A stretch of DNA of 64,000 nucleotides, from the NCBI GenBank assembly GCA_002189035.1, contig NEEC01000004.1, positions 1,798,001 through 1,862,000 of the forward strand, read 5' to 3'. This document shows, piece by piece, positions 10,852 to 44,449 of this stretch. The stretch comes from Utricularia gibba. Taxonomy: Eukaryota; Streptophyta; Magnoliopsida; Lamiales; Lentibulariaceae. Position 1 is the first letter of the stretch, and each line of letters begins with the position of its first letter. The notes under the pieces were generated by a model, which saw only the letters and a program-made list of their open reading frames with translations, did not search any database and was not told the DNA's origin. A program made the position numbers and the translations under genes.

Positions 10852-12377
10852 ATGTCGTTCGAAGAAGCTGTTTTCTCAGCCCTGTCGCTTCTCTTCCTCT
10901 TCATCGTTTCAAGGCGTTGCATGGATTTAATCTGGACATGGGCACACTCCATTCGCCCCATCGAATGGCCCCTCCTCGGAATGATGCCGGGGTTGTGCCG
11001 GAATGTTCACCGGATCCACGAGTTCGCGACGGAGGCGATGCAGGAAGCCGGCGGCACGCTCTGGTTCAAAGGCCCCTCGTTTGCCAACATGGATATGCTC
11101 GTCACCTCAGATCCCGCTAATGTGCACTACATTCTCACCAAAAACTTCGCCAACTTCGGGAAGGGCCCTGAGTTCAAGAAGATTTTCGATATTCTGGGCG
11201 AAGGGATTTTCGCGGCGGAAGCAGAATCATGGGAGAACCAGCGAAAGGCTGCCAAGTTGTTCCTAACCAACAACGGTTTTCAGCAGTTGGTGGCCGAAAC
11301 AACTTGGAACAAGGTGGAAATGGCACTCTGCCCTGTTTTGGAATCCGCTGCAAAAACAGGGGATACGAAGGGCTTCGAGGTGCAGGAGGTTTTCCAGCGT
11401 TTTGGATTCGACTGCACTGTGCTTATGATCTTCGGACACGACCCACGATCTTTGTCCAATGAAATGCAGCAGTTTCCAGAAGTAAAAGCCTTTCACGATG
11501 CGGAGGAAGCTGTTTTCATCAGGCACATTTTGCCGGTTGGACTGTGGAGGTGGCTGCAGTACCTACAAATCGGATCTGAGAAGAAGATGACTCGAGCTAT
11601 GGATATAATTAACTCATTTGTGGCAAAATGCATCGGCTTGAAAGAATCCAAGTTGCGTCTTCAGTCTGCATATGAAAATGATTACGACATGTTCGCCTGT
11701 TACAGAAGAGCCATTTCAGAGAAGCATGAAGCTGTGAAGATCTCAGAGGAGGTTTGGAGAGACGCAACATTGAACTTTCTTATAGCGGGAAAAGATTCTG
11801 TAAGTACTACTCTTTCTTGGTTCTTTTGGCTGCTGGCAAAGAATCCAGATAAGGAAGAGAAGCTCCGCAGAGAATTAGCCACACATTTTCCCTCCGGCGA
11901 ATGGAGATTCACCAGCTTGGAACAGCTGAAAAATCTCGTCTACCTCCACGGAGCTCTCTACGAAACGCTTCGCCTTTTCCCCCCATCGCCCTGAATCACA
12001 AAGCGCCCCTGGAGTCGGATACTCTGCCCTCCGGCCACCGCGTGGAGCCGAACTCCAAGATCGTGATATCCTTTTACTCCATGGGAAGAATGGAATCCAT
12101 CTGGGGTGAAGACTGCCTTGAGTTTAAGCCGGAGAGATGGATCTCCGAGCGGGGGTCGGTCATCACGGTGCCGTCCTTCAAGTTTCCGGCGTTCAACGCG
12201 GGGCCAAGGACATGCTTGGGCAAGGAAATAGCATTGATTCAGCTGAAAATCGCGGTGGCCGCGGTGGTCAGCCGGTTCAAGATAGAGGTGGTTGAGGGTC
12301 ACCCTGTTACTCCAAGCGGCTCAGTCATCCTCCACATGAAAAATGGAATGATGGTGAAAGTGAAGAGATATGAGTAA
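10852..12377 (+). CDS. CYP96-type cytochrome P450, one-base frame break
   Basis: This intronless gene encodes a microsomal P450 of the CYP86 clan, closest by recognition to CYP96, whose studied member MAH1 hydroxylates wax alkanes mid-chain. An N-terminal membrane anchor (about residues 8-22) precedes a proline-containing segment (WPLLGMMPGL). The I-helix reads AGKDS, with Ser where the relatives at 24774 and 29494 have Thr. ExxR is ETLR, the PERF-like motif is FKPERW and the haem loop is FNAGPRTCLG with the axial Cys. The first frame stops at 11994. The second half continues in another frame from about 11985 to the TAA at 12375. The break falls in a run of six C (11979-11984), and one extra base there would give about 508 residues. 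The flawless rest of the gene makes assembly error as likely as a true pseudogene. Substrate is inferred from family only. Confidence 0.88.
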
Positions 12378-15300
12378 AGTGTAAACGTGGTACTGGAGGA
12401 GGACATCTCCCCTGTTGGCTCTCAATTATTTCACTTGGAATCAAATTGGTAAGTTGAGGAGTGATTTAAAACCACCTTTCAGTTCCATAGTCTTTTTATA
12501 TTCCTCTGATATCTCCATTACTGCAACCAACAAATAGCTGTGAGTATATGGATATGATAGTTATCTTCCCCCAACCAACTCCCTTTCTTAGATATTCTCA
12601 AACAAATTACAAATAATCTAATATCGATATTTAAAATTAAAATAATTAAATATATAATAACTTATAAATTAATAATAATCAATTGAATATAATATTTTCT
12701 AATATATTTCATATTTATTATATATTTGAATTTCAAGTGTACTTGTTTGTCGGATTATTAATTTTAATAGAATATTAAAATGTTTATCTTATGGTGTGTT
12801 TTAGATGGCTAAGATGAATTTTATATTAATTTGAGTTTCGGTTAAAAAACAAGTAAATGGGGTTAGGCAATAAAATTAGATCGATTATAATTCAAGAACT
12901 ATCTACCATCATACAAAAAAATAAATTTTAATCAAATCAAAGATCAATTTGATTTGAGGGTGAGTATTAAAATAAAAAAATTCCATATTAAGATTTGAAA
13001 TTAAAATAATAAAATATATAAGAAAGTATAGATTATTAGTAACATGATAAATCTAATATTTGTTAATGTGATTCATGTTTTTTAAATATTAGAATTTTAT
13101 GTATGTTTGTTTGATTCATTATATTCTTAATTTCAATAATTCATGTTCTCTTATAAATAGAAATATTTCAATCTTTTTTTTACATTGAAAAACATTTGTC
13201 AATCACATATTTTAATAATATCATATACAAATTTAATTATACAATTTTCTAATAAACATATGATAAATAATCCTTTAATAAATAACAATCACCATAAAAT
13301 ATATTAATGTTTTTCAAATTACTTATTTTAATTTAAATTAATCATATTTACATTCAATATCAAACAAATTAATAAGCAGGGCTTGATATTGCACAAAGTG
13401 TTGATAGATTGGTGATGCGGCATCATGCAATGCAATCAAAAGCGGGAGGACGTCACGAAGCATGGCGCATATCATCTGTGACATTCATACAAAAGAAACA
13501 TGGGAATGTTTTGCTCTTGGAGCAATTAATAGTCGGGCAAAAGGTTGGGGGAGATTGGAGTACATCGCTTTAGACTTCAATTCCTGGGCTAAACTACGAA
13601 CAACAAACAAAAGAAGAAAGAGGAAGTCTGAACGATGGTATCAGCAGTTTATCAGCTCACCCAACTTAAACAGACATGGAGTCCAGATTTGCATAAGCAT
13701 GATTCGGATCGGATGTCCCAATCTCCTTAAAAATAGCATGGGAGAAACCGATGTGGGCACTCATCGATGTCTCATCATCCAGCCACCTGTGCCTATTGGG
13801 GCTTGTGCACAGTTGCGGAGATGCTCCTTGTCTCTTCTTGATTCAAAATGGATTTTCGAGATGAACTGATCATCGGGAACGACAGACCTGTTCTTGAAAT
13901 AGTAAATATATATTGAAATTCAGTATCCGATATATAGAACAAACACATCTGATATCAAAGTATATAAAAAATGTAAATCACATTAAAAAATATTAAGTTC
14001 ACCTAATTAATAGTAATTTATAATTTCTTATATAATTTATTATTATAATTTCAAATCTGGATGAGTGATCATATATTCTAATAATATTGCCCACAAAAGC
14101 TGGAGGATGAGATGGAGTAGGGGCATCGCAGGTTCATTTTGAAAGGTATCCATTGTCCATTTCTCTCATACATACTAAGCACAAAAAAATACACGTAAGG
14201 TGAGTAGTTTTCTAAACACACACAGTGGCTAGTTTTCAAATTAACTCCATCGCCAGAGTCATTCTTACATTTAGCAAACTTCACATCGTGGATCAGCAAC
14301 TGCGCCTCCCACACACACCTCCAAAGACGCATATCTCTCACATATTAAATTAAAAAATTTACACTATATGATCAGATGGTTTCGACCTGTATTCAAGTGA
14401 GTAAATGGTTTGACAACTAAGAATAAGAGTTACATGCTTATTGTTTAAAACCCACATTTTAAAGAATTTTACATAGAATGCAAATAAGTCATTAAACAAG
14501 AACCAGTGAAAAAGGGGTTATCTTGCCTATCTCCTCCGTATTACCCTCATGTTTTTTCAAAGTATTCGCACCTCCGCTTTGAATGTGAGTCTCACTGAAA
14601 ACTAACTGACAATTGCTGATACTGGAAATAGCCTTTTTGCCCTCTCGTGGTTACAAAATAAGAGTGTGTTCTATATATATATAATATATTGAATTCTCAT
14701 TCTACAAAATGAATATGTAGAAAAAAAGCATAAAACATATTTTTTATTCTTTATTTTAAAAAAAATTAAATTCTTATTCTTAAAAAATACATTATTTTGG
14801 AGAATGCGAAAATGATCTCATACTCATTTTTAGTAAAATGATAATGTAAAATGAATATACTGTGCAAAACATGTCCTAAAATAAATACACTATCACTATC
14901 ATCGATAATAATCATATTTGTCAATAATTTTCTATATTCATATTGAGAAAAACTTGATAACTTTAATGTAAAAGATCCATCTTTTTAAGTTTCAAAAGTT
15001 AAACCCTGTTTTGTAAATTAAATATTTTTAAGTGATTTTGTCTAAAGTTTATAGATTCCAATCTTATCATATTTTATGAGAAAATTAGATATTCAAATTC
15101 TGAGATCAATTTAAAAAATTATTAAATTTCTTAAATTTATGTTTCAATGATTAAATAAGAAATTAAGTAATTTATAATATTCAATTTATATGTATTTCAA
15201 AAATATATTTATATTTAAATTATAGAATAATTTAATCTATTATCTTATTAAACAATTTATAATATAAAAATTGAATTTATTCATAATGTTTTAAAACTAA

Positions 15301-16677
15301 TTCTATTTTACATAAAAATATAAAATTATATTGCTTGTATCGTGTTGTTTTTTTAACTTAAGGTGCATACTCTTTTACACAATACTTGCAACATGTTTTC
15401 AATTTAGATTTCTATGCATCCATTGCATTTTCAACACGCATTTCATCAAAATGATACAAGAAGATTATCTACTATTAATAATTTTAGATATTGTGCTTTT
15501 TTTTTCTGTATAATCTTATTTCTTCTTTTTTACACTAGAGATCTTGACTTACAAAATCATCATTTTAGAGGTGGTTTGAATGTTGAACTATGAGTATATT
15601 CACCATCCCTCTACTCAATAGCCTTATTCTTTTCATTCTCCATGAATGTACCTAAATCCAAAAATTTCAATCACAAGTTAGCTTCACAAAAATGAAAAAA
15701 AAAGGCAATATGAAAAATCTAGATTAAAAAATTCTTCTACACTCTCAAGCCCCAAAGAATACAATTCAATCGAAAAAAAAATAAACCTAAGAGCTGGTGG
15801 ATTGATGCATATTGAAAAAATCTTGCATGAGTGGAGTAATCAACACCCACAAACGATAAAGAAATGAATAGCGGTAATGAAAAGCTTTTGAAGAGAAAAA
15901 GTAAAGAGTGCGAATTAAAAGGGTCAAGGATCACCATGAGGGAGAGGGGTTGTTTAATCACAATTATTGATTATTATTTAATAAATATAAATGTTGACCA
16001 GTTGGCAGTTGGATAGCTTTTAAAATTAAAATCCACCATCCACTTTTTTTTTTATTGTATGATAATTATGAGACTGCGGGTTTCTAGAAGGGAATCGGGC
16101 AAGTTGGACAGTCAGGTTTGTTTTGCTGGCTCCTAAATTAGATAACCTTTGGTGAAGACAAGGGAAATCATGTCTTCTTACATCCAAATAGATGAATGAT
16201 CCAATTGGTGGGAAAGCATCCACGAGCGCGCCTCATGTCCAGTAGCCGGAGATTCATGGTGTTTGTGGTCGGTATAACATTCTTCTTGAAATGATGAATA
16301 CACACATATGTTGAGTTATGGGATTGGTTGCGAGTATAGTTGGAAGAATATCATTTCATTTAATTTCTCGTGTCATTTGTTATTTGTTTTGGTATCCTAC
16401 TAACGAGTTTGATAAAACAATCTCATAAGTAAAAGTTTAAAATTACTTCATATTGTATTAGTAATTATATGAAATAATATCTTTAAATAAAGGGATTTGA
16501 GTAGAGTTGTTGACGCATATCGTAACTCTTGAGTCTTGGGATGAGATCAGGTCAGCGTTCCTTCATCACAATGAAAATAAAAGAATTATAATTAAATCTC
16601 AACCATATAAGAATAAAATAAACTTTTTCGTCAGCCACAGGCTTCTTTATCGCAATTGAGTTATCATGGATGAGCTC
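12378..16677. other. Intergenic, strongly AT-rich
   Basis: No gene is supported. A GC-richer patch at 13384-13870 contains a 135-codon frame without any recognisable motif, which I do not call. At about 14660-14880 a block bounded by GTGTTCTA and ACATGTCCTA could be a decayed MITE, but its ends do not match well. Confidence 0.5.
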
Positions 16678-17100
16678 TGTTAAGTGTTATTTTCTAGTTA
16701 TTTATTAGGCATTATTATGTGTTAATTTAGTATTAAGTCGTCCAAATTATGAGTCTTATTATTAAATATTTTATTTTTATTAGAAAATTTTTATTTTTCT
16801 ATTTTGTATATATATTTTATGTTTTTTTTCTCACATTTTAACTAAGACATATCAGGAGACTGTCGTGAAGTGTTACAGAAGTATTGCAGGTGGTCAGAGT
16901 CTGACTTTTCATGTCTTGTACGCGACGTGGAACGATTGTGGGCGGAAGATTGACACTGGTCAATGCCCTGACTTAAGGCATGTCAGAGTCTATAGCAATG
17001 ATTGAGCACTAACTTGCATGCAAAGACAGGCTACTGGCGCACGCAAGACAGAAAGAATGATGGGAAGAGGACTCAAACGAGTTAAGCCACATGGGTAATG

Positions 17101-17109
17101 ATATAAAAG
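17101..17109 (+). promoter_or_regulatory. Probable LTR TATA box
   Basis: ATATAAAAG is preserved in both LTRs (right copy at 22502-22510) and, on the minus strand, in the solo LTR near 1710. That is conservation of a promoter word against a diverged background. Confidence 0.5.
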
Positions 17110-17170
17110 TCACTTGAAGCACTTAGTTTTGGACTTTTGCCATTTTCTTTTCTAGACTTAGAACTTTTGA

Positions 17171-17198
17171 GTTCTTCCTCCCTTCAAGGAGGAAGAAC
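17171..17198 (+). other. Conserved 11-bp hairpin in the LTR leader
   Basis: GTTCTTCCTCC and GGAGGAAGAAC are perfect complements around a six-base loop. The same hairpin is at 22571-22598 in the right LTR with one loop change. In the solo LTR at 824-2102 the stem has accumulated mismatches. It lies about 60 bp past the TATA word, so it would sit near the 5' end of the transcript. Confidence 0.65.
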
Positions 17199-17995
17199 AT
17201 TTAGCTTACAATTTCATTTCAGTTTTCATGGCCTTTTGTAGCTAAAACCCTTTAGTTTCTGGGAGTAGATGAAATTTCCTTCCAAGTCTTGAGCAATACA
17301 CTCGGTTGTTCGCTGAATTCAATTCGTATTCTCCATACTTCTACGTGTATTGTCGTAGTCTTTTTGTAAGAGCTCCTAGTCAAAGTCCATGAGTAGCAAG
17401 CCACTCCTCGAGGATTTTGGTGAAGATCAAGGTGAAAAGCACCAACTTCAACCCTGCCGGTTCAAGGAAATTAATGGATTTTTTGTGGCCTAGGTACCGT
17501 GACAGTAGACAAGTTGTGACCTCGAACCTGCCATTGGCCATTGGTAACAGCTGGGCACACGCGCGCAATTCGGTTATGAAGGCAATTGAAGACAATCCTT
17601 TTGTCTTCCTAATCGTCCAAGGGGGAATCACATGAGGATATTCCCATGCCTCCTTGTCAGTCAGAGTGTAAAGGAGAGTAGAATATTCTTTGCTGTTATA
17701 ACCAGCTATTCGGAAAAAATCAGTGAAAACCGAGGCGAGATAGACAAAGGAAGGTGATGAAATCTTATTCTTAGGAACTACGTCCCGTAGTTAGAGCTCA
17801 TCACTTAGATTGTAACTTTTATTTCTGCATCTTAAAAACCCCTTTTTTGCAAAACCATGACATTTTGTGAAAGTTTCTTACAAACAATCTTCACGAAAAA
17901 TAACTCCCTCAGATCGATACTCGTACTACGCTTTTTGTGTTTTACGTTTTATAAATATTTAAAATTTGTTGAGGAAACGACACGCAACAAATTTT

Positions 17996-18009
17996 TGGCA
18001 CCGTTGGGG
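17996..18009 (+). other. Gypsy-like primer-binding site
   Basis: TGGCACCGTTGGGG begins six bases after the left LTR. It resembles the TGGCGCCGTTGCCGGGG that follows the 5' LTR in plant Tat/Athila gypsy elements. It is on the opposite strand to the copia gene inside the element. Confidence 0.5.
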
Positions 18010-18129
18010 GGAAGTTGTGTATTTTTGTGTTTAGTGTTATGTATAGTTTTTCTTTTTCTTTTCTTTTTCTTTATTTCTTCTTGTTTTTATTTTGTTTACA
18101 TTTTGCTGCTGTTTTCTCTGTTTTTATGC

Positions 18130-21100
18130 ATTCAGAGATAACATGAACGGCATAGGCCAAGTCTGGTCGAGTGCAGGTAAGATAGACAAGCCTTCCAACC
18201 AAACGCCGAAATTTGTCAAGATCTTTCAAGAAAGCTGCCTTTGACCTTGCTAGATTATGATTAACGTCCATAGGAGTAGCTGACGGCTTGCAACTACTCA
18301 AAGTAACTTCCGAAATATTGTCAAGAGCGTACTTCCGTTGGCTCAAGTAGATACTGCTGGTACTACGAGCAACTTCAATACCAAGGAAATACTTCAACGG
18401 ACCTAAGTCTTTCATGTGAAAGCATGAATTCAAGTAACCCTTGACAGTGTTTACCAACGCAATGTTGCTGCCGGCAAGTAGCAGGTCATCCACATAAACA
18501 AGAACACGCACATCACCATCACGAGATGAGAGGCTGAAGAGACTATAGTCCAATTTGGACTGTTGAAACCCATATGATTTCAGAGAGGTGGCTAGTTTGG
18601 TAAACCAACACCAGGGAGCCTAGCGAAGACCGTACAAAGACTTTTGCAAGTCGCAAACTTTGACTACGCCTCCTTCAGAGAATCCCGGATATAGTTGCAT
18701 GTAAATTTCTTCGTTAAGATCCCCATGGAGAAAGGTTATTGACATCCATGTGATGATTTGCCCATCCACGATTCACAGCAATTGTGAGAAGAACATGAAT
18801 AGTAATCATTTTGGCAACTGGAGCAAACGTTTCTTTGTAATCAATTCCGGCAACTGTACTATTGCCCATGATAACAAGCTGAGCTTTATATCGCTCAACC
18901 GTGTCATCGGACTTGTATTTAATGCGGAAAACCCATTTGCTTCTTAAAGTGTGCTTACCAGGAGGAAGAGTAACAAAGCGCCAGTTCTTATTTGCTTCCA
19001 GAGCTCGGATTTCATTTGCCAAGGCTTCACACTAGTGCTGATCTTTGATAGCTGCATATGGATTCGTAGGTTCTTTGTGATGATTGATAGAAGCCATGAA
19101 GCCTCGATGAAACCCATGGAACCGATGAACAGAATCAACAGAATGAAAGGGATAACGAATCGAGCTCTTCGGAGGGTTATGTATGACTGTGTCGATCCCA
19201 CAATATAATCTTGGAACTTCGAAGGTGGCCGTCGATCCCGCTGACTACGCCGGGGAGACATGGCGGTCGTAGGCGGGATAGCTATTGAAGGCAATACTGG
19301 AGTAGTTGATGCACCAGCCCGGTCACTTGAGTGCGTAGAGATTTGAGGCATTGAAGGCCCAGAGATGAGTGCAGGCCCAGGGGACGCAATGGGTCTAGTA
19401 GGTTGTTCAAGAGTGTCATTGGAATGAGAAGGCCCATAGATGGGCTGAGATGCATCATCAGGCCTAGTCAGGCCTGAGGGAGAGTCCAGCCCATCATCAA
19501 TATCACTGGGGGCTGATCCCAATGCGATTGGGCTCCCTTTCGCATTTGGGCCTGGGCAAAAGGGAACGAGGTTTCAGCAAACTAGGCATTAGCACAACAA
19601 AAAACAGTTCCCGATTCGATGTCATAAAATTTCCAAGCTTTGATGCTAGCCGGATATCCAATGAAGACGCATCGCCGACTTCGAGTTTCGAATTTATCGA
19701 ATAATTTCAGAACATGATAAACATAAGCAAGGCACCCAAAAGTACGTAGGGCGGAGTATGTCGATGGTTTTCTGGACAATTTCTCTAAAGGGGTCATTCC
19801 CTTTAGTACGGCTGATGGTGTGCGATTCATAAGATAGACTACAGTGCACACACAGTTATCCCAAAAATGTTTGGGAAGATGACCTTGAAACATCAAAGCA
19901 CGGGCAACGTTTAGGATATGACGATGTTTGCGTTCCACTCTGCGATTTTGTTGTGGAGTACCGACGGCAGATTTTTCTGGGAGAACTCCATTAGCAGAGA
20001 AATATCTGGTCAAGGGATGAAATTCCATCCCATTATCTGTTCGGAATATTTGAATCTCTTTCCCGAATTGGGCACGAACCCAGGCACAGAACCATTTCAC
20101 CCGGGATGGAACTTCAGACTTGGCTCGCAAGAGGTGTATCCATGTGGTTCGTGAAAAATCATCAACCAAAGTTAGAAAATAGTGAGCACCACAATATGTG
20201 GGAGTACGATAAGGCCCTCATAAATCACAATGAAATAACTTGAAGGGTGATGAAGCCATCGAGCCAGAAATCAGAAATGAGATTCGAGTCTGTTTAGATA
20301 AACAACAAGTGTCATAGATGGAAAATCTAGAAACGGTAGAGGAGTTAGCAACGGAGAGTCCAGGAATAAATCAAGAACAGAATAAGAGAGGTGTCCTGGA
20401 AGTTGATGCTAGAGATCTCGGTTCATTTCAATTTTAGAGGAGAACGTAAGTGAGACTTTCGGCATGCAAAACTGATGCACTTCTCTAATGGGCTTACCAA
20501 TCCCAATCATCACCATCGAAGCTCGGTCCTGAATAATAAGGATAGGAATACATAGAGAAATCAGATATCGTCGATCGGAGATAAATCCAAACAGAGATAA
20601 CAGATTGCAGTGAAATCCTGGGACATAAAAAAACGTTATCAAAGTGAAAGGTGGTCCCAATGCGCATAGTCCCAGATTGTTGGGCATTCTCCAGACCGCC
20701 ATTAGGCATAGTGATAGAGCAAGAAGCATCAAATCGAACATCAGATAACCATTCAAGATTATGAGTCATATTATATGAGGCACCACTATCGATAATCCAA
20801 GCACTGTATGTAAGCATAACATAGAGGCTATTGGAGGAGGCATGTGCGGAGAGTAGTTGTTTCAGCTTATGACACCGAGCAGCACTCAAGGTAGGCACTT
20901 GTTTTCTGTCATCGGAATTAAGGACAATTGGAGGTCCCAAGGATTGACCACCATTGTGAGCCATGTTCGCTTGACCAGAGGTGCTTGGTTTTTCTTTTGT
21001 CCCAGATTGCGCGCGAGCCGTGGGAGCCCTTGTGTCACGAACTGGGACCCGTGCTCCAGCATGCACCAGTGTGCCTTTTCATCAAGTTTGAATCGAGTTC

Positions 21101-22059
21101 TATCACCCCACCAGTCCGGATACCCGGTTGCCACAAAGCAAGAATCCTCAACATGACTTGTAAAGCCACAAATTTCACATGGAGAGTGAGATTTCGATGG
21201 TTTCGTTCGTTTTTCCTATACTGGTTTGGAAGAATGACGAGCAGCAAGAGCAATAGGTTCACTTCGTGGCTCCTCACTCTGCTTAATGTTATGATGTTGA
21301 TCCTCTCGCACAATGTGGTTGTAGATTTGGTTGAACAAAGGCATAGGTTCTTGACTTAAAATTTGATAGCAGATGGTCCCATAGACACTATCATTGAGCC
21401 CCGTCAAGAACTGATGAATTTTATCAGTTTCCCTTTTGCAGCTGAGTGCAGCATTCACGTTGCACTCACACTTTCCACATTCACAAGAAGGAAGATTATC
21501 CATGACAACATAATCGTCCCAGAGCTTTTTAAGAAGCCGAAATACTGAGTTATACTTTCGCCAGATTGATGACAAGAAGCAAGATCACGCTTTAGTTGAT
21601 GGAGACGAATGCCATTGTACACACAGAAGCGTTCCTTCAGTTCATCCCAAAGCAGTTTCACCAAATCAGGTTCAGTTATAGTGGATCTCAATCCAGGATC
21701 AATAGAGTTGCATATCCAAACCACCAATAAAGAATTCACTTGTTCCCAATCTTCAACATAAATAGATTTTTGGATGTTTGGATATTATACCGTCAAGAAA
21801 GCCAAAATTCTTCTTGACTTTAAGAGAGATGCAAATTGCTCGGGCTCATTCATCATAATTAGACCCGTTCAATTGCACATTGGTTAAGGGACGCCCAGTG
21901 TGATTTGTAGCGGTGATTGAGAAGGGAGAAGTGGCATTCTTTGAACCTGCATCAGCAAAACTGAACTGCAATACCGGCAAAGCTTTAGCCTAGACATTCT
22001 TTGGCCTCCACTTTCTTCATGGCTTTTGCAGCCGCTTCAGGTTCATCATCGTTGGCCAT
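18130..22059 (-). pseudogene. Copia gag-pol, broken and lacking RNase H
   Basis: Reading the minus strand from an ATG at 22059, fragments of a copia polyprotein appear in order but in several frames. They are a gag domain (about 21740-21216), an aspartic protease core (WIIDSGASYNMTHN, about 20800), integrase (VDDFSRTTW, TDNGMEF, GTPQQNRRVERKHR; 20200-19582), a low-complexity linker (19522-19080), and reverse transcriptase (KWVFRIKY, then VYVDDLLLAGSN; 19022-18140). Stops and frame changes are frequent, for instance within gag after about 20 codons and just before the integrase at about 20218. The homology ends abruptly after TRPDLAYAVHVIS at about 18130. Beyond it lies a pyrimidine-rich leader-like sequence, so the RNase H domain is missing. 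It cannot encode a working polyprotein. Confidence 0.9.
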
Positions 22060-22075
22060 CGATTACAGCAGGGGT

Positions 22076-22088
22076 CGCTTTGATACCA
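22076..22088 (-). other. Copia-type primer-binding site
   Basis: On the minus strand TGGTATCAAAGCG begins four bases after the LTR end and 29 bases before the gag ATG. This is the usual initiator-tRNA-Met complement of copia elements with one change (A for G). Confidence 0.8.
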
Positions 22089-22092
22089 TGAT

Positions 22093-24773: not shown

Positions 24774-26303
24774 TCATTCAACGCGTGAGACGTTTACCTT
24801 CATCCCGTTTTCCATGGACAGAATCACTGAAGCCTGAGGTGAGATACGGTGACCCGGAACCACTTGAATCTCGAACCGGCTGACAACGGCGGCGGCCGCG
24901 ATTTTCAGCTGAATGAAAGAGACATCCTTCCCCAAGCAAGTCCTCGGCCCGGCATTGAACGCCGGAAACTTGAAAGCTGGCACGTTAATAATGGTTCCAC
25001 GATCGGAGATCCATCTCTCAGGCTTGAACTCGAGACAATCTTTACCCCAGATGGATTCCATTCTTCCCATGGAGAAAAATGATATCACGATCTTTCTGTT
25101 TGGCTCCACCTGGTGGCCGGTGGGCAGAGTATCGAGCACAAGGGGAGCTTTGTGGTTCAGGGCGACCGGAGGATACAGGCGAAGCGCCTCACAGAGAGCT
25201 GCTTGGAGATACACAAGATTTTTTAGCTCATCGAGGCTGGAAAATCTCCATTTTCCCGTGGGGCATGCTGTTGCTATTTCTTGCCGTATTTTTGCTTTCT
25301 TTTCAGGGTTCCTCTCGAGAAGCCATACGAACCAGGAAAGAGTAGTACTGATTGTATCTTTTCCGGCAACCAGAAAATTCAAGGTCGTATCTTTCCAAAG
25401 TTCTTCAGGAATTTTAACCGCTTCTTGATTTTCAGCGATAGCTCTCTTGTAACATGCGAACATGTCGTTGTCGTTTCCATTTCCTTGCTCGAGACGCAGC
25501 TGCGATTCCCGCAGACGGATGCAGTTCGAAATAAATGAGTGAACCGTTTCCTGAGCTTTCGACATCTTTTTCTCCGACCCGATTTGCAGAAACTTCTGTA
25601 GCCTCCAGACGGCTTCAGGGAGAACGTGCCTCTTCAGAATCGCCTCTTCAGCGTCATGAAAAGCTCTGACTACAGGAGCATCGCGCGAATCTTCGCTAAG
25701 AGAACGTGGGTCGTGGCCGAAGAGCATGAGAACAGTACAATCGAAGGCGAACCGCTGGAACACATCCTGCAAATCCAGCTTCTTTTCGTCTTCTATTTCC
25801 ACGGCTGATTCCAGGACTTGTAAGAGGTGAGAGTCCACCTTTTTCCAGGTGGTTTCAGCTACGAACTGCTGGAAACTCGTGTTCACCATGAAGAACTTGG
25901 CGGCTTTTCTCTGAATCTCCCATGATTCGTCTTCCGCCGCGAAGATTCCCTCGCCCAGAGCATCGAAGATCTTTTTGAATTCAGGGCCTTTGCCAAAGTT
26001 GCCGAAGTTTTTTGTGAGAATGTAATGAACGTTAGCAGGATCACCAGTGATCATCATGTCCAAGTTGGAGAACCAGGGTCCTTTAAACCAAAACGTGCCG
26101 CCGGATTCCTCCAAAACCTCCGTCACGAATTGATGGATCCGGTGCAAGTTCTTGAGCAACCCCGGAAGCATTCTGACGATCGGCCAATCTGTAAGCACAC
26201 ACTTTTTTCTCCAGATCCCAATGAAATCTGAGCAGGATTTCAATATCAATAACAGAAGAAGAAGAAAAGCAAGAGCCGAGTAAATATCTTCCTCGTAAGA
26301 CAT
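24774..26303 (-). CDS. CYP96-type cytochrome P450, intact
   Basis: This intronless 509-residue P450 is the only one of the three cluster members whose frame is open throughout. It has an N-terminal hydrophobic anchor (residues 9-22), the hinge WPIVRMLPGL, the I-helix oxygen-binding motif AGKDT, ExxR as EALR, FKPERW, and the haem-binding loop FNAGPRTCLG with the axial Cys, in the usual order. By recognition it belongs to CYP96 in the CYP86 clan: fatty-chain hydroxylases at the ER, of which Arabidopsis CYP96A15 (MAH1) makes secondary alcohols and ketones of stem wax. CYP96T enzymes of Amaryllidaceae act on alkaloids instead, so the substrate is open. It points in the same direction as the gene at 29494-31025. 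Confidence 0.93.
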   Translation of the reverse strand: MSYEEDIYSALAFLLLLLLILKSCSDFIGIWRKKCVLTDWPIVRMLPGLLKNLHRIHQFVTEVLEESGGTFWFKGPWFSNLDMMITGDPANVHYILTKNFGNFGKGPEFKKIFDALGEGIFAAEDESWEIQRKAAKFFMVNTSFQQFVAETTWKKVDSHLLQVLESAVEIEDEKKLDLQDVFQRFAFDCTVLMLFGHDPRSLSEDSRDAPVVRAFHDAEEAILKRHVLPEAVWRLQKFLQIGSEKKMSKAQETVHSFISNCIRLRESQLRLEQGNGNDNDMFACYKRAIAENQEAVKIPEELWKDTTLNFLVAGKDTISTTLSWFVWLLERNPEKKAKIRQEIATACPTGKWRFSSLDELKNLVYLQAALCEALRLYPPVALNHKAPLVLDTLPTGHQVEPNRKIVISFFSMGRMESIWGKDCLEFKPERWISDRGTIINVPAFKFPAFNAGPRTCLGKDVSFIQLKIAAAAVVSRFEIQVVPGHRISPQASVILSMENGMKVNVSRVE

Positions 26304-26350
26304 CTTAGACTTTGGGGAGTTCTCTTCATTTTTCGGTTTCTACATGAAGC

Positions 26351-26360
26351 TATTAAATAA
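26351..26360 (-). promoter_or_regulatory. Possible TATA element of the second CYP96 gene
   Basis: On the minus strand TTATTTAATA lies about 50 bp before the ATG at 26303, matching position and wording at the other two CYP96 genes. Confidence 0.4.
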
Positions 26361-27367
26361 AGAGAGAAATGTACTTCAGTGATGGGAAAAAGGTCTCTAT
26401 AAAGTTGCAGTCATTGAGTGGCCCTCAAACCGGAGAAGTGTCTAGTGTGTAGATCACCGAAATCACCACACGTTGCTTTTTCTTTTTGGTAATAATTAGG
26501 GTTTACTCACCAATCGTTGATCCATGGGAATGAGATAAAATGAATTTAATTTATTTGAATTTAAATAAAATTGATATATTTAGATTAAGTTTTAAGTAGT
26601 ATTTAGTTATTGGGATTAAAAGTGAAATTAATTGGTTTTAAGTAAAGGAAGAAAAAGATGTAATTTTAAATAAACCCACATATATGAGATTAAAAAAACC
26701 CATATAATTCCAGATTTATTTGAACCTATAAACTATACATCTTATAATTTATAATCTTAATTTTAAACCCATATAACCCCATAAACGAAACACACTCTAA
26801 AAGTGTTTTCTTCTTCAATGACATACAAAAAGATATATATCCTTCCCTCCCATCCCATCAACGTTAAAGTTTCAACGCAAGTTCAATTATCTTATTCGAT
26901 TGAGAGTTTTTTGTGTACTCTAGCGAAAGCTGAGGTTCAATGGATTGCCCTAAGTGAGAGTACGTGTGACGCAGAACCATTGTTTATATTTTTCTTGGGA
27001 CAGCCAATTGCTTTGGAAGAATTTGTCTTGAGAGTTCTCTTGCTATGGCAAACTCGAACTCCTCCGCAGTTCCCATGTCCCTCCATAGTGAGACAAACTT
27101 TTGTAACCCACTCAGATTAGTCTGTGCAGTGAAATTGCATGGGGAAGCCTGTGTGGGTTTTGCCAACACCTCAAATGCACCAACACACTACTATTTTGAA
27201 CCCTTCCGGAGATGCCGGAGGCCGAAAAGCACTGCCTGTGAGTGTCGACACTCCTATTCCCAAAGGGCGCTGTCCCAAGTAGATATGGTTGGACACCCTC
27301 TCTAAGGGCCCCAGCTCCTAACCAGACAGGCCTCTGCCATCGAGAAATGGGAACCTATCTTAGCAAG
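26361..27367. other. Intergenic upstream of the second CYP96 gene
   Basis: It contains an AT-rich block (26530-26800) whose ends (GGGAATGAG and ACGAAACACACTC) hint at a decayed MITE. A GC-richer block follows (26930-27340) with no recognisable protein. No gene is supported. Confidence 0.45.
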
Positions 27368-27370
27368 TTA

Positions 27371-27670
27371 GGGTGTATTGTGTGTAACTTAATAAACAAC
27401 TTCTAATTAATTCATAAATAGAGGTTATTGTACAAGTAGATGTAAAATAAGTAGAAGCAGTTTATTTGAAATTAATTAATTTACTTACTAAATAAGTCAC
27501 ATTTTCTCAACTTATGTGATAAGTAGGTGAAGTATTTAAAATTGGAATAAGTTAAGAATAAGTAGAAGTAGAAATTAAGTTTTAGAACAAATAAAAATAT
27601 TCTGTAAAACACTTAATTTTACTTTTATTTTAAGTTATAAGTTACAAAATAAGTTGCACATACTACACCC
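27371..27670. mobile_element. Tourist/PIF-Harbinger-type MITE (300 bp)
   Basis: The left end reads GGGTGTATTGTGTGTAACTT. The reverse complement of the right end reads GGGTGTAGTATGTGCAACTT, giving terminal inverted repeats of 20 bp with four mismatches. The trinucleotide TTA flanks both ends (27368-27370 and 27671-27673), the target preference of PIF/Harbinger elements. The interior is AT-rich and non-coding, with repeated AAGTAGA and AATAAGT words. AT-rich sequence at 33760-34750 uses the same words and may hold older relatives. Confidence 0.8.
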
Positions 27671-27673
27671 TTA

Positions 27674-28211
27674 GTCTCAAATCCAAAGCCAGTCAGATGA
27701 TGAGCTTTTGCCCTAGACCACCACGCCAAAGCAAGAGAGCTGCTGGAAGGAAATAACTGGAAAAGAAGCCAAGTCGGCAAGTCGGGTGTAGGGCTGATGC
27801 AGCGTAAAATGTTCAGATTATCCTGCTTAACTGCCGCGATACAGTGCTGTAAGAAAGCCTTTTAGCGGACTATCCACCCTGCAATGACTGATGTCACACA
27901 GCGCACAAACATTGTACAAGGACTACTCATAAAACTAAATACATAAATAAAAAAACGTTGTACAAGTACATGCTTTCATTAAACAATGCCTAACTGATAA
28001 GAAAGGGGACGTCCTTTATGTTTTTTTTTTCTTTTTTTATTATTTTATTGTGAATATTTTTTTTACAAAGAATGTATATTGCTAGTTAATTATTCTAATA
28101 CTAACGACATGTGATAGTTTATTCCAAAGTATTTAGGTTCGCTCCGCACAGGGCTGACTCTATCTTTTCTCTTTGATCTGTCACGATCAGATGAATGATT
28201 GTTCTTGGTTG
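27674..28211. other. Intergenic between two MITEs
   Basis: No gene recognised. A GC-richer part at 27674-27910 has no open frame of note. Confidence 0.45.
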
Positions 28212-28219
28212 ATGTCGAG

Positions 28220-28808
28220 TAGAGATGTTAATGGTTCCGGATAGTTTGGTTCCTATAATATGATTTCATGGTTCGGTTTGGAAACTAAAAAAAATAGAAA
28301 TCACAAAAATATGGTCAGGATTTTAATATTTTATAGTTTCAAATTGGAAAAATCGAATATTTGACAATTTGCTATTATATTAATATAATATCAATTATCA
28401 CATTTTTAAATTAATACAATAATTATTAATGATAAGGATTATGTCACTGTGAAAATGATGTTGCTACTATTTTTTATTATGTTTGAATGCCTTTGTAATA
28501 TACTAGCATTGCATTTTTGCTTTTCAAACTATTATTTTAGATTTTCAAATCTATTTTTCTTTTCCTTAGATGTGCATCAGATGATGGAGACTGATAATTG
28601 ATTTTATAGGAAGTTCATTGACGTAATATCAATTATCGGGTAAGAACTGAACTAGAACAGACCGGACCGGACCGGAACTATTTAGTAACCGATTCGATTA
28701 GGAACTGAAGATTCTGGTTCGATTCCAGATACTTGTATTATTTTTGAGCTTTGTCCGGTGCCAACTATTACATGATACCCGACTGAAGCCAGACCATCAA
28801 CATCTCTA
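28220..28808. mobile_element. hAT-type MITE (589 bp)
   Basis: The left end TAGAGATGTTAATGGT and the reverse complement of the right end TAGAGATGTTGATGGT differ at one of 16 positions. The 8-bp direct repeat ATGTCGAG flanks the element exactly (28212-28219 and 28809-28816). An 8-bp duplication with TAGAGATG ends is the hAT signature. No transposase is present. The interior contains GGACCGGACCGGA and related words that do not encode a protein. Confidence 0.85.
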
Positions 28809-28816
28809 ATGTCGAG

Positions 28817-29493
28817 TTAAGTCTTACAAAATAGCATCTTCTGAAAACTCCAGGGCAGCACCGAGTGTGGCTTGAGGACGGGAGGGAGCTCTAGCCTCGA
28901 TCAATCAGCTTGTTTTCGCCCAGCGAGAGGTTGGGCGAAGAAAATAGGCCGTCGGTTTCTGAGCGTGACCGAACAATCGCAATCACCCAACCGATGGAAG
29001 ATGAAAAGGCATAATAAAAAGATCCCAAAATGGAAGAAAGAGGGGGTGCTTGGAATCACCAAAACGCCCATACTTCATCTCGGCTTCTTTTGTTCCTTTT
29101 TACGTGCTATTTTTCTTATCTTCTGGAATTTGCAAGACTTGCCATTCAAACTTCTTAGATATCGTTGATAATAGGGTATTAATATGTTTAATTATAGTAT
29201 ATTTGGATTTGTATATATTTAAGTGTAAATTATAGAACAAATTATAAGTATTTATGATTTTTAATACAAATTTACAGAAATATAAATACCTTTTCAAAAC
29301 CATTAATTTCCATTTAATAATAAATAGAAGTTGGCCAAGACACAGCCTAAACTGTTCTAATTTAATTTTTTTAATATGTGATTGATTTTATAACAAAACC
29401 ATTAATACAGATGTTGTGTACGGAATTAAAACACGTGACTTCGATTATTAATGCAACTGTAGTTCGCCTCCCCTAGTCAGGGCTTGACGGTTG
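28817..29493. other. Intergenic, downstream of the third CYP96 gene
   Basis: A GC-richer patch at 28850-29100 has a 98-codon frame without recognisable features. The rest is AT-rich. No gene is supported. Confidence 0.45.
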
Positions 29494-31025
29494 CTACTCG
29501 TAGTCATCCACATTCACCTTCATTCCATTTTTCATGAGGATAATGACGGCAGGGCTTGGTGAAACACGATGCCCTTCAACCATCCGAATCTTGAAACGGC
29601 TGACCACCGCGGCGGCGGCGATTTTCAACTGAACGAAGGCTATTTCCTTCCCTAAGCAACTACGTGGCCCGGCGTTGAATGCTGGAAACGTGAAAGACGG
29701 CATATTCACGATGGTTCCGGTGTCGGAGATCCATCTCTCCGGCTTGAATTCAAGACAGTCCTCCCCCAGATGGACTCCATTCTTCCCATGGAGTAGAATG
29801 ATATCACTATCTTGGTATTCGCCTCCACGCGGTGGCCGGACGGGAGCGTGTCGGATTTAATCGGCGCCTTGTGGTTCAGGGCTATCGGAGGAAAGAGCCG
29901 TAGCGTTTCGCAGAGAGCGGCATGAAGATACACAAGATTCTTCAGCTTTTCCACGCTGGAGAACCTCCATTTTCCCTCTGGATAATTCGAAGCCACTTCC
30001 CGTCGGACTTTCTCTTCCTTTTGGGGGTTCTTCTCCAGGAGCCAGAAGAACCAGGAAAGAGTAGTGCTTATCGTATCCTTCCCGGCGAAGAGGAAATTCA
30101 AAGTGGCGTCCTTCCAGACGTTGTGAGGAATCTTCACCGCTTCATGATTCTCTTGAACGGCTCTCATGTAACATGCATACATGTCGTGATCTTTTTCCTG
30201 TGCAGTGCCTCTTGGAAGACGCAGCTTCTCCTCTTTCAACTTCATGCACTTCTCCATGAACTCACGAATAGTTTTCATGGCCTCCGTCATCCTCTTCTCA
30301 GCACCGAATTGAAGAAACTTCTGCAACTTCCACACCGCCACAGGAACGACGTGTCTGATCAACGCCACTTCTTCAGCATCGTTGAAAGCGCTCACTTCTG
30401 GAACATCACGCAAATCCATACTCAATGTTTGTGGGTCGTGTCCTAAAATCATGAGAACCGTGCAATCAAACCCTAACCGCTGAAAAACCTCCTGTAAATC
30501 GAAGTTGCTGCTAGTTCCGTGACCTCCATTTTTAACAGCGGATTCCAAAACCGGAAACAGGGCAGTTTCCACCTTTTTCCACGTGGTTTCCGCGACGAAG
30601 TGTTGGAAACTAGTATTCCCCATGAACAGCTTCGCCGCCTTCCTCTGGCTCTCCCATGACTTCCCCTCCGCCGCGAAGATCCCTTCACCCAGAACGTCAA
30701 AAATCCTCCTGAACTCAGGGCCCTTCCCAAAGTTGACGAAGTTCTTGTTAAGAATATAGTTGACGTTGGCCGGATCGGAGGTGACCACAATGTGCATTTT
30801 TATGAGCCAAGGACACGGGGATCTGAACACGTAGGTGCCGCCATAGGCCTCCATCACCTCAGTCAGGAACCGGTGGATCCGGTGGAGGTTCTGGAACAGC
30901 TTCACCACTGGCAACTCCTCCGCATTCTTCTTCCATTTTGCGATGAAATTCCTGCAGTAACTCAAGAGTACGGAGGCGAGTAGAAAAGCTAGGGCTGGGT
31001 AAATAGTTGCTGCTACGTAAGACAT
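29494..31025 (-). CDS. CYP96-type cytochrome P450, one-base frame break
   Basis: This is a third intronless CYP96 relative. The first frame (31025 down to 29706) carries the N-terminal anchor, the I-helix AGKDT and ExxR as ETLR. It then loses frame after SMGRMESIWG. The second frame (to the TAG at 29494) carries FNAGPRSCLG with the haem Cys. The break lies in a run of five C on the plus strand (29763-29767, G on the coding strand). One extra base would rejoin the frames into about 510 residues, including the FKPERW region. A second oddity is the hinge: where its neighbours have a WPxxxMxPGL segment, this protein goes from ELPVVKLF straight to QNLHRIH and lacks the proline-rich hinge that helps orient P450s at the membrane. 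It may therefore be decaying even if the frame break is an assembly error. Confidence 0.87.
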
Positions 31026-31062
31026 TGAAAAAAAAATTGAATCCCTCGGCCACCACGTAGGG

Positions 31063-31072
31063 ATATTTAATA
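31063..31072 (-). promoter_or_regulatory. Possible TATA element of the third CYP96 gene
   Basis: On the minus strand TATTAAATAT lies about 40 bp before the ATG at 31025, parallel to the other two cluster members. Confidence 0.4.
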
Positions 31073-34000
31073 ATGGACTGTCCTATGACTTCAGATTGTA
31101 GCAGTTGGGAATTAACTGCTCCATTCATTTCGAGATTCTGCATGGATTGCGAAAATATATAAACAGATGGTGAAAATATTACTTGGATTATTTTGAAAAT
31201 AACGATAATAACAACACAGAATTTAAAGAATCACCCCTTTTTTTAAATGTATTTGAATAAAACTAAATTAATATTAAATACAAACTAAATTAATTAAATC
31301 ATATATATATATATATATAATAAAAAACATAAAAATTATGTTCGATCACAATCCAGTAGGCTTAGTCACACTCAATAATTGGGATCGAGGGTTTTGAATT
31401 GCGCATGTGACTAGTGACCGCGATTTTGAAGCGGAGCCCACAGATACGTTCCTAGGTGAATGTGAAATGTTTGTCGTTTTGTCGCAACAACCATTTAACG
31501 CACACCTAAACCATACCAACTACCTGGCCATGTGTTTTATGTCATGGTTCACCATAACTGTCATTTGTGCAAAAACAATCACCGACATGACAAGATTCTT
31601 TTTTTTTTCAGAAAACTGGCACCCCAGAAAAACACAGAAAAAAAACACAAATCATCAGGTAATTTGAGGTTTTCCGTACACAAGCGTACGGACTTCATTC
31701 GTCTCATTATTGGGATGAATTAAAAATTTGGGCATATGTCAGACATTGCATGAAAAAATGACAACTTTGTGTATTTTTTTTTGTTTTAGTATATGATATA
31801 TAATGTAATATGAGATAATTTTATAAATGACCCTCCTATTATTGTGACTTGTGAGGCGTCGCCATCACGTTAAATGTGTGGGAGAAGCGATGGAAATATC
31901 GTCTGGCCAAAAGAGGAAAGACAACTGTCCACAACGTGCTTTCCATTTTTGAAAACTATGAAGGTGAATAATGTAGAGCAATAACGTTTATTTCGCAACT
32001 CTTTTTTCTTTCTAACCAAATACAAAACATGCAACTAGTGCAAATCATGTTCGAACAAATCCTGAGATAAATTAAATACCGTAGCCATTGTGTTGGAGCG
32101 GTTTCGGACCAAAAATTGGAGCTGGGCGGACCGGAAAACTATTTTTCTTTTTGTTTGTGTTATTAAATGGAAGAGGTGTTCCAACTGCCCCCTGCATTCG
32201 TGTACTTGGGATAAGGACCAATAACTGCCCATGCTTTATCATTCAAACGTCACTTGCCCGCCAAATAAATGCTGTCCTCTCATCTCATTTCTCAAGTAAG
32301 GAACGTGAGTTTATTACACACTACTGTAATATTTCTTTCAAACATCAGGGTTCGTGCTTATGGTTGCAGTAACTGGTATCTCCGTACGCTTAAAATTGGT
32401 GCAGCTTTGAATTACTACACGCTTTCTACTGTTGGCGGTGCGAAGCGAAAGCACCCCATGAGAATGCAATACCCTTGCAATAAGTGTCGCTGGAGATGGG
32501 AGGAGAGGACAAAGGATCGGTCGCTCTCTTCAGAAAAAAAGTCATTTGTAACAGAGCTTCTTCGTTTAGGTTAGCTCAGAGGACGATTCCACAGAAAAAA
32601 AGTAATTTGCAACTAGTGCCATTCCAATGAGCTTCTAGTTCGATGAAGGCACTGGTGCCTGTCCTGTTGTAACTGCCTTTGCCTTCTTCATGCATGCAGC
32701 AGAATGTCACCGGGCTGATCCACCTCTTCAACGCGGGCCGCATTAATTTATAAGGCAGAGGCCCAATAGATTCTTCGGTTTGGAGATGGAGTCTGCTTGG
32801 ACTTGAGCTCAGTGACAACTGCCCGCATACCATGGAGACTGGGTATTTGTCATGAAAATGTATTGGGCCAGGAGGGAGCCCGAAAATATTTGGGCGATAC
32901 ATCTTATGTATATTAACTAAGAGTAAAATAAGATCATTAAAATTATGTATATTGATAATTTAAATCATCTTTAGGTTGTGTGTATAACAAATAAAAATAT
33001 AAAATATAAAATATGTAAAATCAAAATATTGATATTTTTTATTATTTGTTGATGATAAAAAGTCATAAATATTTAATTCTGGATATAAAATTTAATTATA
33101 TTATTCAAAGTATTGAATGTATAGATTATGCATTTTTTAAATTACCAAAAATATTATTAATTTTCATTTGTATCTATTATTAACTTATAGGTTGTATATT
33201 TTCTAATAACTCCCATAATGAACATTTGACTTATTTGAAATGTTTGATTTTTTTATTCTAAAGAAACTCGATGTTATTTTAACTTTCAAAAAGATCTCTT
33301 GTGAAATTTTCAATAAGATATTATTTTTTCTTCTGACTGGTTTGTGGTTGAGTCGTTTGATCTGGTTTAGACATTTGTTGGTCTTGGGTAGTGTTTTAAA
33401 AACGGATTCAATTTATCATCGTGATTATTCTTAAGTTGGGTTGAACTTTTTTTTATAATGGGTTGAATTCTTTTTAGCTATATTTTAATATGAATATATT
33501 ATAAAAAAATAAATATAATTATGTAAATTTAATGTTTTTAAATTCCAGAATTTTTTTACTTTTTTTAATAAAAAGTATTGAACTCGAATTCAAAAAATTA
33601 TGAGATAAGATTGAATCGGATCGAACTTTATTCATCCTTAAAACATTGGTAAAGCATGTGTTTTGGTAAAGGAGGGGTTGTTTGACCATGAGATTTAAAT
33701 ATTCTGAAAATATTTTAATATAGATATTTACATAAGAAAATAAATATATGGATGAGATTAAAGCTATAGTCCATGCAATTTTTTCGTAACTTCTACTTAA
33801 GTTATAAGTAAAAATTATTAGATAAGTAGATGGAAACTAAATAGTAATGATTTGCAATGTCCACTATTTAAACATAAGTTATATTTAAATAGTTGAAGGT
33901 AAACTATAAATAAGTATAAGTAGATTATAAATTATGTTTATACCTTTATTTTTAAGAGTAAACTAAGATAAGTTAACAAACTAAATCTAAAGAGATTCAG

Positions 34001-35100
34001 TTCATCCGAAAATTCCTGAGAGTCTTTTAAGATTGGATTTAGATTTTAGGAAAACAATTTTATAATCAATTGAGTATAAAGAATGAGAAAGAATGAAGAT
34101 GAGAGAAAATAAAACTGAATCGAGCAATGCTATTCTCTATAGAGGGTAGGATTTGGAAATTTCTAAATAAGTTGTTGCTTGTGGAAATAAATAGCATTTT
34201 GGTGATTTATAAAATAAGTCAACAAATAAGTTGATTATAATTTAAAATATAATAAGCGTATAATTTATACGATTTATTTCATAATTTCTACTTAATTAAT
34301 ATATAGAATTTATTAGATAAATAGAATCTAAATAATTAGTTGTGGTCTGTACAATTTATTATATATTCACCAAGAAATAAATGTATTTTGCTCTTGCTCA
34401 AATGTGGTATAATGGAGGTGAACTCATTTGTTGGAAAAGTTGATGAATTATTTAAATAAGTAGGACAAACAATTTATAATGTAAGTTGGGTTTTAAGTTG
34501 AAATGTAGTCAAATTTAAAATAAATAGAAGTTAAGTAAAATTTTGAGTATGAATTACAGATAGATAAAATCTAAGATAATATATAATGAATAATTTTAAC
34601 TTATATTTTAAGTAAAAATATGTATAGTGAATAAGTAAAAATGGAAGTGAAATTTGAAAAAAAAAAGTAAAAGTTGGAGTAGTGTATAGAACGGTTTTTA
34701 ACTTTTAATTTAAATCATAAATAAAAAATAAGTCATACATGGTGTAGACTAAATATTTGATTGATAAATTAGAAATATGATGAAAATGTGTTTCAAATGT
34801 TTAAAATATGTAAATTTTATCTAAGATATTAAACTCTAATATCAATTATTCATAAATCTTATTATATAAACATGAAATTTTAATATATTTATTAATATTT
34901 TCCATGTAATACTATTTACCAAATATAGGGGAAGTGCATATCACCAATTCTGAAAAGCAAAATTGAATTAAGCGGAAATATATTGTTGGGAGGGAAACTA
35001 GAAATTCAAATATAGGAAATTAATAAAACAAAATAAATAATGTCGCCGTAGGATTCGACACTCGCTCACGCTCAGCTGGCTCTGGCTCTGCGCCCTTCTG
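31073..35100. other. Intergenic, mostly AT-rich
   Basis: A (TA)n run lies near 31300. A GC-richer stretch at 32080-32900 has frames of about 100 codons but no recognisable domain. From 33760 to 34750 the sequence is full of AAGTAGA and AATAAGT words like those inside the MITE at 27371. It is probably a mosaic of old MITE copies, though I cannot delimit any. Confidence 0.5.
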
Positions 35101-35190
35101 ACCGAATTGACATAAAACAAAAAAACCAAATTCAGAATTCCGAATTTCAACGTGCTGCTCGATTCTCACTCACTCAACGCGACGCGGGAG

Positions 35191-37346
35191 ATGGCGAATG
35201 CCGGCGGCGATGGGAGTCGGGATGCGCGGCCGAACCTCGATCTGCCGGATGAAATTCTGTCTGTGATACCTACGGATCCGTACGATCAGTTGGATCTGGC
35301 TCGTAAGATCACATCCATGGCGATAGCTTCACGTGTTACTAAGCTGGAGATGGAGTCGGAAGAGCTCAGGCAGAGGCTCTGTGAGAAGGATAGGGTGATT
35401 GAGGAACTGGAGAATAAGGTGTCGCGGTTAGAGGGGAGAACCAAGAAACTGTGCTGCGACTGAAAGTTACTCGCGAGGAGAATGTGGGTTTTTGATTTCG
35501 AATCGCATTTAGGTAATTGTTTTGTTAGACTTGAAGGTTGGTTAAGACCTGGGATTTGGGTTGCAGATGAAGCTGTGGAAGGAGAGGGATAATTTAGCCT
35601 TGACTGTAAAAAAACTCAGTCGCGACTTGACTAAGGTATTTACTTTCTGCATTTCATTTTGAAGAATGACGTGATTCCGAGATTGTGAATCATTAGGAAC
35701 CCGGCTAATTGTTTCGATGTTTCTTCGAATATTAGAAGTAAAAAGAAAGTGTGGAAGTGTTCTAAAGGTTTATAAAGCGGACTTCAGAATTTTTAGGTTA
35801 TTTCTAGATTATCAATTTTGTGAAAAAAGTTTGGAACATTACTTTAAACATGCCATCATGGTAGCTTCTAGGTTTCAGTTTCCTTCCCCTTCATCTGCTA
35901 TGGGTTTATATTTTGATGGAAGTTTCTAACATTGTTCATTCTACAGCTAGAGACCTTTAAACGCCAATTGATGCAGTCGCTGAATGAAGATAGCTCATCT
36001 GTATGGTTTCCATATGGCATTTTCGTATTTTAGTTTTGAATTCGTGAAGAAGATAGGTAGTAGACTGTTTTCATCGATGCTAAGTCTAAATTACCTTATT
36101 TTGCGCCAACTGGCAGAATGAAACTGTAGAGATTGGCACTTGTGATCAATCAGCGCCAGAGACAAATTCAGTATTTGGTAATTTTCGTATCCTCAAGATT
36201 TGTATATGCCGCATCCTTACCTTTAAATATCTGCTAGGCATTTGCGTCTCATACTTTTGCTTTTGCTTTTGCGGTTCTTTTTGACCTTCACTGCTTGACC
36301 GATTTTGTTTCTTCTTATGTAACTTAGATGAGTCTATTAGCTTAATGAGGTATCGGCCATATAATGGATCTGACAGCATTGCAAGTAGTTGAACATAAAA
36401 GCAGTTTGTTATTCCATCTAATTCCATGTTTGTGGTATGCAAGCAATGGTTGAAGTTATTTTTGGTTCAGCGTCTAAGCAGGCCGAGCAAAAATATTCCA
36501 TCATGCCATATGGCATGACCCCACGACTCACTCCTACTGGAACTCCAAATACCATGTCAACAAATGCATCGCCAAGAAAGTATTCTGCTGCTGTCTCTCC
36601 TCAGAAAGCTTCCGGTGCTACTTCCCCAAAAGCCCATCCCGAGGGGAGGGTAGGCTCATTTTCATCATTTTTCCCATCCAGCCAGCAGTCATCAGCCGCC
36701 AATTCGCCTCCCCGGGGACGCCAGATTCCAGGTACACAAATTACTGCAATGCTGATATCTTAACCTTCTGCTTATTCCCAAGTTGTGTCAAGGCTGCATC
36801 GTTAAATGAAATTTAATGCACTTGTGATTGGACTGTCTGAAAGCATTTTCTGCCGCTGCTGCTACTGATTCTGGATTTGTTCTTGTGAATTTGGTGTTGA
36901 TGAACCTTAGGACGCACTGCTAGAGTTGATGGAAAGGAGTTCTTCCGTCAAGCAAGGTGATGCACCACTTTTTAAATCATGTTGACCACAACCAGTCTGA
37001 GCAGCGATCTGTATTTGAGGGTTCTTTTGTTGATCAAAGCAGGAGTCGTTTATCGCTAGAACAGTTCAGTGCGTTTCTGGGTAACGTGAAAGAATTAAAT
37101 GCACAACGGCAGTCCCGTGAGGTATCAAATAAATTTATCCGAAGCATAACCATCTTTTTTCAAAGACCACCCACATCCATATGTTTTCCTGATTACATGG
37201 ATATCTATTTCCTTGTTTTCACTGACGCGTGACCCTGAATCTCTTCTTTCCAGCTAACATTGAAAAAAGCAGAAGAGATTTTTGGGCCAGAAAACAAGGA
37301 TCTCTTTCTGTCGTTCCAAGGACTGCTTAGCCGCAACGCCCGCTGA
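35191..37346 (+). CDS. At4g15545-like coiled-coil protein, frame break in exon 1
   Basis: Eight exons follow GT-AG rules: 35191-35483, 35567-35635, 35947-36000, 36117-36177, 36471-36731, 36911-36956, 37043-37121 and 37254-37346. The product matches my recollection of the plant family of Arabidopsis At4g15545. It has an N-terminal signature (LPDEILSVIPTDPYDQLDLA), a coiled coil spanning exons 1-3, a Ser/Pro-rich middle (exon 5, TPTGTPN and SPRKYS repeats) and a conserved C-terminus (FFRQARSRLSLEQFSAFL). The molecular function is unknown. Exon 1 starts in one frame but must reach its splice site in another to join exon 2 (EEN then MKLWKERDN). The slip is at the G run 35433-35436, and one more base would restore about 318 residues. 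All other exons fit perfectly, so I suspect an assembly error. Confidence 0.88.
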
Positions 37347-44267: not shown

Positions 44268-44449
44268 TGTTTGTTACCCTGGAAATTATGGGATTGTTTA
44301 TGATTCTACCCACTTCAACCATTACCTCTTATACAACTATCCATCCTATATACAAGATATCTATCTAGCTTGTTTAATTTTTTTTTAAAAAATATATAAT
44401 CGACTTTCAGCTCTTTGGAATTAGACAAGGCTATATATATAGGGATTAG

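Follow-up and report, generated by a model that had tools for sequence, protein, structure and literature searches.

Three genes in a 64,000-nucleotide stretch of the Utricularia gibba genome (C413:1798001-1862000; hereafter the window) each lose their reading frame once, which raises the question of whether the plant has lost three genes or the assembly has lost three bases. Two of the genes belong to a tandem group of three CYP96-like P450 genes, A, C and B, of which C is intact and A and B are each off frame once. The third is a gene that we take to be At4g15545-like (Table 1). The assembly as a whole comprises 100.09 Mb in 516 contigs, and a search of it for further copies of the three window sites found none. 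We put at about 0.93 the probability that the window breaks are long-read consensus errors and that all three genes are intact in the plant itself. The opposing reading, that all three are genuine young pseudogenes carrying one real single-base deletion each, starts from the presence of the breaks in the given sequence, and from the observations that plants with reduced genomes commonly lose genes and that tandem CYP copies often decay. We consider it unlikely, for the reasons set out below.

Table 1. Features of the window discussed in the text (positions within the window).
Feature	Position	Strand	Remarks
CYP96-like P450 gene A	10852..12378	+	intronless; one frame loss
Missing-base interval of gene A (T4C6), site 1	11975..11984	+	several positions possible, C6 at 11979-11984 among them
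CYP96-like P450 gene C	24774..26303	-	intact paralogue, used as reference
CYP96-like P450 gene B	29494..31025	-	intronless; one frame loss
G5 on the coding strand of gene B (C5 on the plus strand), site 2	29763..29767	-	Trp-Gly-Glu codons; the true run is probably G6, with one G dropped
At4g15545-like gene, first coding exon	35191..35483	+	frame lost once near 35433-35438; GT donor at 35484
G4 run of the At4g15545-like gene	35433..35436	+	likely place of the missing base (placement inferred)
At4g15545-like gene, second exon	35567..35635	+	continues the frame that follows the break in exon 1
ABA3-like molybdenum cofactor sulfurase gene	about 37877-44268		intact; read by eye
NAC gene	in the window		intact; read by eye

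A sequence-only reading had proposed that each gene is broken by one base missing from a G or C run. The C6, C5 and G4 runs that it named lie exactly where it had placed them, and its count of one net -1 break per gene was confirmed. Frame-aware alignment showed that genes A and B align to paralogue C from end to end with exactly one -1 step each. In the At4g15545-like gene, the frame that opens at the ATG and the downstream frame (NQETVLRLKVTREEN) are one base apart; the downstream frame runs straight into the GT donor and continues as MKLWKERDNLA... in the second exon. At all three sites the net step is therefore -1 (or +2). When the two halves of A and of B were joined with an X, each product matched the Pfam p450 family (PF00067) in a single stretch over nearly the whole profile, with 211 and 195 bits, respectively. 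Both contain the ETLR, PERW and FNAGPR[TS]CLG motifs, the last being the heme-binding Cys motif. The window genes thus resemble CYP96-type P450 proteins (CYP86 clan, wax biosynthesis) in being intronless, in their length of about 509 amino acids, and in their p450 profile and heme motif; the frame breaks are their sole oddity, and the subfamily name is putative. The expectation that one added base would restore a family-typical protein accordingly held for A and B. It did not extend to the third gene, whose protein matched no Pfam family above the cut-off and for which a search of the genome found no paralogue. Between genes A and C, at 18071-21784, lies what appears to be a decayed Copia-type retroelement with many frame changes.

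The precise position of the missing base was less certain than its existence. At site 1 the gap in the paralogue alignment falls inside CT-TTT and not in the C6 run, so the loss is confined only to about 11975-11984 and could involve any base there. Paralogues A and C read GGGG-T-GA and GGGG-T-AA at site 2; given this T after GGGG, a missing T is equally good by protein score. A fourth CYP96-like gene, paralogue D (L012, C4:2339093-2343433), is otherwise full length and has three -1 breaks, at runs of four C, four G and five G. At C4:2340593 it reads GGGGGAAG without the T and shows the same -1 at the same codons as site 2, and a CYP96-like copy on contig C412 is also broken at these codons. 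These shared breaks favour, for gene B, a G6 run that was read as G5. Placement in a G or C run is thus compatible with sites 1 and 2, but neither forced nor unique. This tempers the earlier claim that each base was lost from such a run, as the CT-TTT gap and the possible T leave other positions available. It also weakens the argument drawn from three breaks in three G/C runs, two placements being ambiguous. The genome-wide -1 bias and the run context nevertheless show the pattern to be more than chance.

The direction of frame breaks was examined in the same genome in five largely intron-poor or intronless gene families (GRAS, KCS, BAHD, HSP70 and UGT). A break was called where adjacent same-strand matches abut in the profile and leave no room for an intron. 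The chaperonin family was left out as too intron-rich, and P450 loci F, G and H, which have introns or real indels, were excluded from the counts, save for one exon compared between contigs C376 and C413. Across 146 kb of matched sequence, intron-free junctions numbered 29 in class -1 and 2 in class +1/-2, a bias with a one-sided p of about 2e-7 against a 1:1 expectation and of 2e-4 against a 65:35 deletion bias. One of the two exceptions, the GRAS gene L050, has in fact lost two G residues, each a -1 step, in a span of 30 bases. Real decay is deletion-biased, but less strongly than this. That the same type of lesion recurs throughout the assembly with a 29:2 bias, including in PRP8 and HSC70 genes, argues against young pseudogenes in the window, as does the presence in each window gene of a single lesion and nothing else. 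Some frame breaks in the assembly are probably real, for example a +1 step at TTTGCTCACAGAGGTATGG common to two tandem P450 copies on contig C3 (L015/L016, 3.426-3.436 Mb), which is perhaps an inherited real lesion or a short intron.

Some breaks fall repeatedly at the same place, as would be expected if genuine frame changes were tolerated through programmed frameshifting or RNA editing. Gene B and the copies on contigs C4 and C412 share a break at the same Trp-Gly codons. Likewise, five GRAS genes (L050-L053 and L065, on C244, C375, C142, C2 and C1) are all broken in one conserved Arg-Pro-Gly-Gly-Pro-Pro stretch, which is rich in G/C runs. However, the common feature is simply a conserved G/C run; A and C, in which the run is interrupted by T, are unbroken at that point, and the other breaks lie in unrelated contexts. 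We therefore give tolerated frame changes a negligible probability, the smallest of any explanation considered here.

Frame-aware alignment to intact relatives showed that the missing base adjoins runs such as GGTCCCCCACT, GGCCCCCCAAG, TGGAGGGGAAA and ATGGGTGC. Of 25 -1 events (window genes A and B included), 20 could be repaired acceptably by extending a G or C run to a length of 4 or more, compared with 11% of 1040 simulated random deletions judged by the same rule. Acceptable here means within 5 score units of the best repair, a tolerance chosen after divergent references were seen to penalise run placement. Under a strict tolerance of 2, 9 of the 25 events fitted a G/C run of at least 4 against 3% in the null, so there is an excess at both tolerances. 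In most of the 25 events codon degeneracy leaves the identity of the missing base open by protein score alone.

Loci that were assembled twice offered a direct comparison. Contig C376 repeats C413:5.387-5.412 Mb, and a comparison of the two across 20 kb revealed 5 substitutions and 11 single-base indels. Nine of these indels are in G or C runs of 3-7 and only two in A/T runs; the shorter version is that of C413 in six and that of C376 in five, so the window's own contig has candidate losses of this kind elsewhere. In one P450 exon (LVPVLDMVAEKGVVIDLQDIFQRF) the consequence is explicit: the G5 of C413 reads through, whereas the G4 of C376 leads to a stop. Disagreement between duplicate contigs at just such runs is a further point against young pseudogenes. 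It could also be read as biology. We consider it very unlikely that G/C runs are really contracting throughout the genome, with many conserved genes a mixture of intact and broken within a clone, and slightly less likely still that the plant has a truly high rate of one-base G/C-run contraction (for example, from defective mismatch repair) and that the duplicate copies sample clonal or allelic variants. Some real variation is indeed present, as indicated by the 5 substitutions and by a nearly identical duplicate GRAS locus (L036/L037; C316 and C412:853 kb), in which several longer indels in the A+T-rich flank outside the gene suggest a true haplotype. Yet in an A+T-rich genome slippage should be no rarer in A/T runs, which are longer and more common, and these account for only 2 of the 11 indels. 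A third pair of contigs, C241 and C304, shows 16 mismatches and 2 indels in 4 kb; an HSP70 copy near an intact one has an identical -1 junction in both contigs (L085/L086; C241 and C304:2.2345-2.242 Mb), which is either a real lesion or a systematic miscall.

Indispensability provided a further test. The genome contains one PROCN match, which marks its PRP8 gene (L087, C412:507140-508327 with flanks). This only PRP8 gene found has a -1 break at a run of four C (TTTGCCCCAGACCA / TTTGCCCCAGACCATTC), and its two halves, joined by X, align without gaps to solved PRP8 proteins. PRP8 is a core spliceosome protein that a plant cannot lack, and a plant in which this break is fixed is therefore not credible; nor would real contraction of G/C runs leave such a break fixed in a gene of which a single copy was found. 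Two conserved HSC70 genes (on C496 and C451) show the same type of break. The -1 breaks thus strike genes regardless of dispensability.

We also examined selection on the CYP96-like genes. Pairwise dN/dS among A, B, C and D was 0.12-0.20 overall and 0.12-0.25 after codon 378, which shows that these genes are under purifying selection. Beyond its break, gene A retains an excess of third-position changes (4:4:13 by codon position). Changes specific to gene B after the break were distributed 6:2:1, without the third-position excess expected under constraint, and to this extent are what a young pseudogene would show, in a small sample (n = 9). Neither the several lesions nor the relaxed selection that characterize a pseudogene was found, as each of the broken window genes has one lesion and the pairwise values are low.

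Together, the 29:2 bias, the G/C-run context, the disagreement between duplicate contigs and the breaks in PRP8 and HSC70 strongly favour consensus error, and on this point the sequence-only reading was upheld. Across the assembly, the breaks have the attributes of homopolymer-type consensus error: loss in one direction (-1), location in homopolymers, indifference to dispensability and disagreement between duplicate assemblies. We infer that the three window sites belong to this class and that each is an error. The consensus would have dropped one base per gene, as elsewhere in the genome, through a systematic shortening by one base of G or C runs that are often 3-7 long and sometimes 2. The cause is presumably an uncorrected long-read (PacBio-type) consensus; the U. 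gibba PacBio assembly was produced with HGAP at 88x, with a contig N50 of 3.4 Mb and 581 contigs (review PMC5793159). With high probability, then, the window breaks are an artefact and represent nothing biologically new.

In practice, the three window genes are best regarded as probably functional unless reads show the contrary. Without error-aware annotation this assembly will give wrong gene-loss counts, pseudogene lists and family sizes, and in gene-loss studies that use it each case needs checking against accurate reads. The matched coding sequence had at least one break in every 5 kb or so (29 in 146 kb, a lower bound), or at least 2e-4 per coding base, from which we estimate that false breaks may affect about a fifth of ordinary-length genes. 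In the window itself, inspection of about 9 kb of coding sequence (the three P450 genes, the At4g15545-like gene, and the ABA3-like and NAC genes) revealed 3 breaks, where about 2 would be expected. The window's rate fits that of the assembly, and the cluster of three needs no special explanation.

Residual indel errors are addressed for small genomes in PMC12007338. In plant BAC assemblies made with HGAP/Quiver, the indel rate was lower, at 2e-5 to 6e-5 per base, and homopolymers showed no concentration of indels (PMC5873921), which speaks to some extent against consensus error here. The present assembly resembles such long-read-only assemblies (PacBio HGAP/Quiver and others) in that single-base indels outnumber substitutions and intact genes acquire false breaks, as reported for plant loci (PMC5873921). 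It differs from them in that nearly all of its indels are losses that fit a G or C run and in that the rate per coding base is several times higher.
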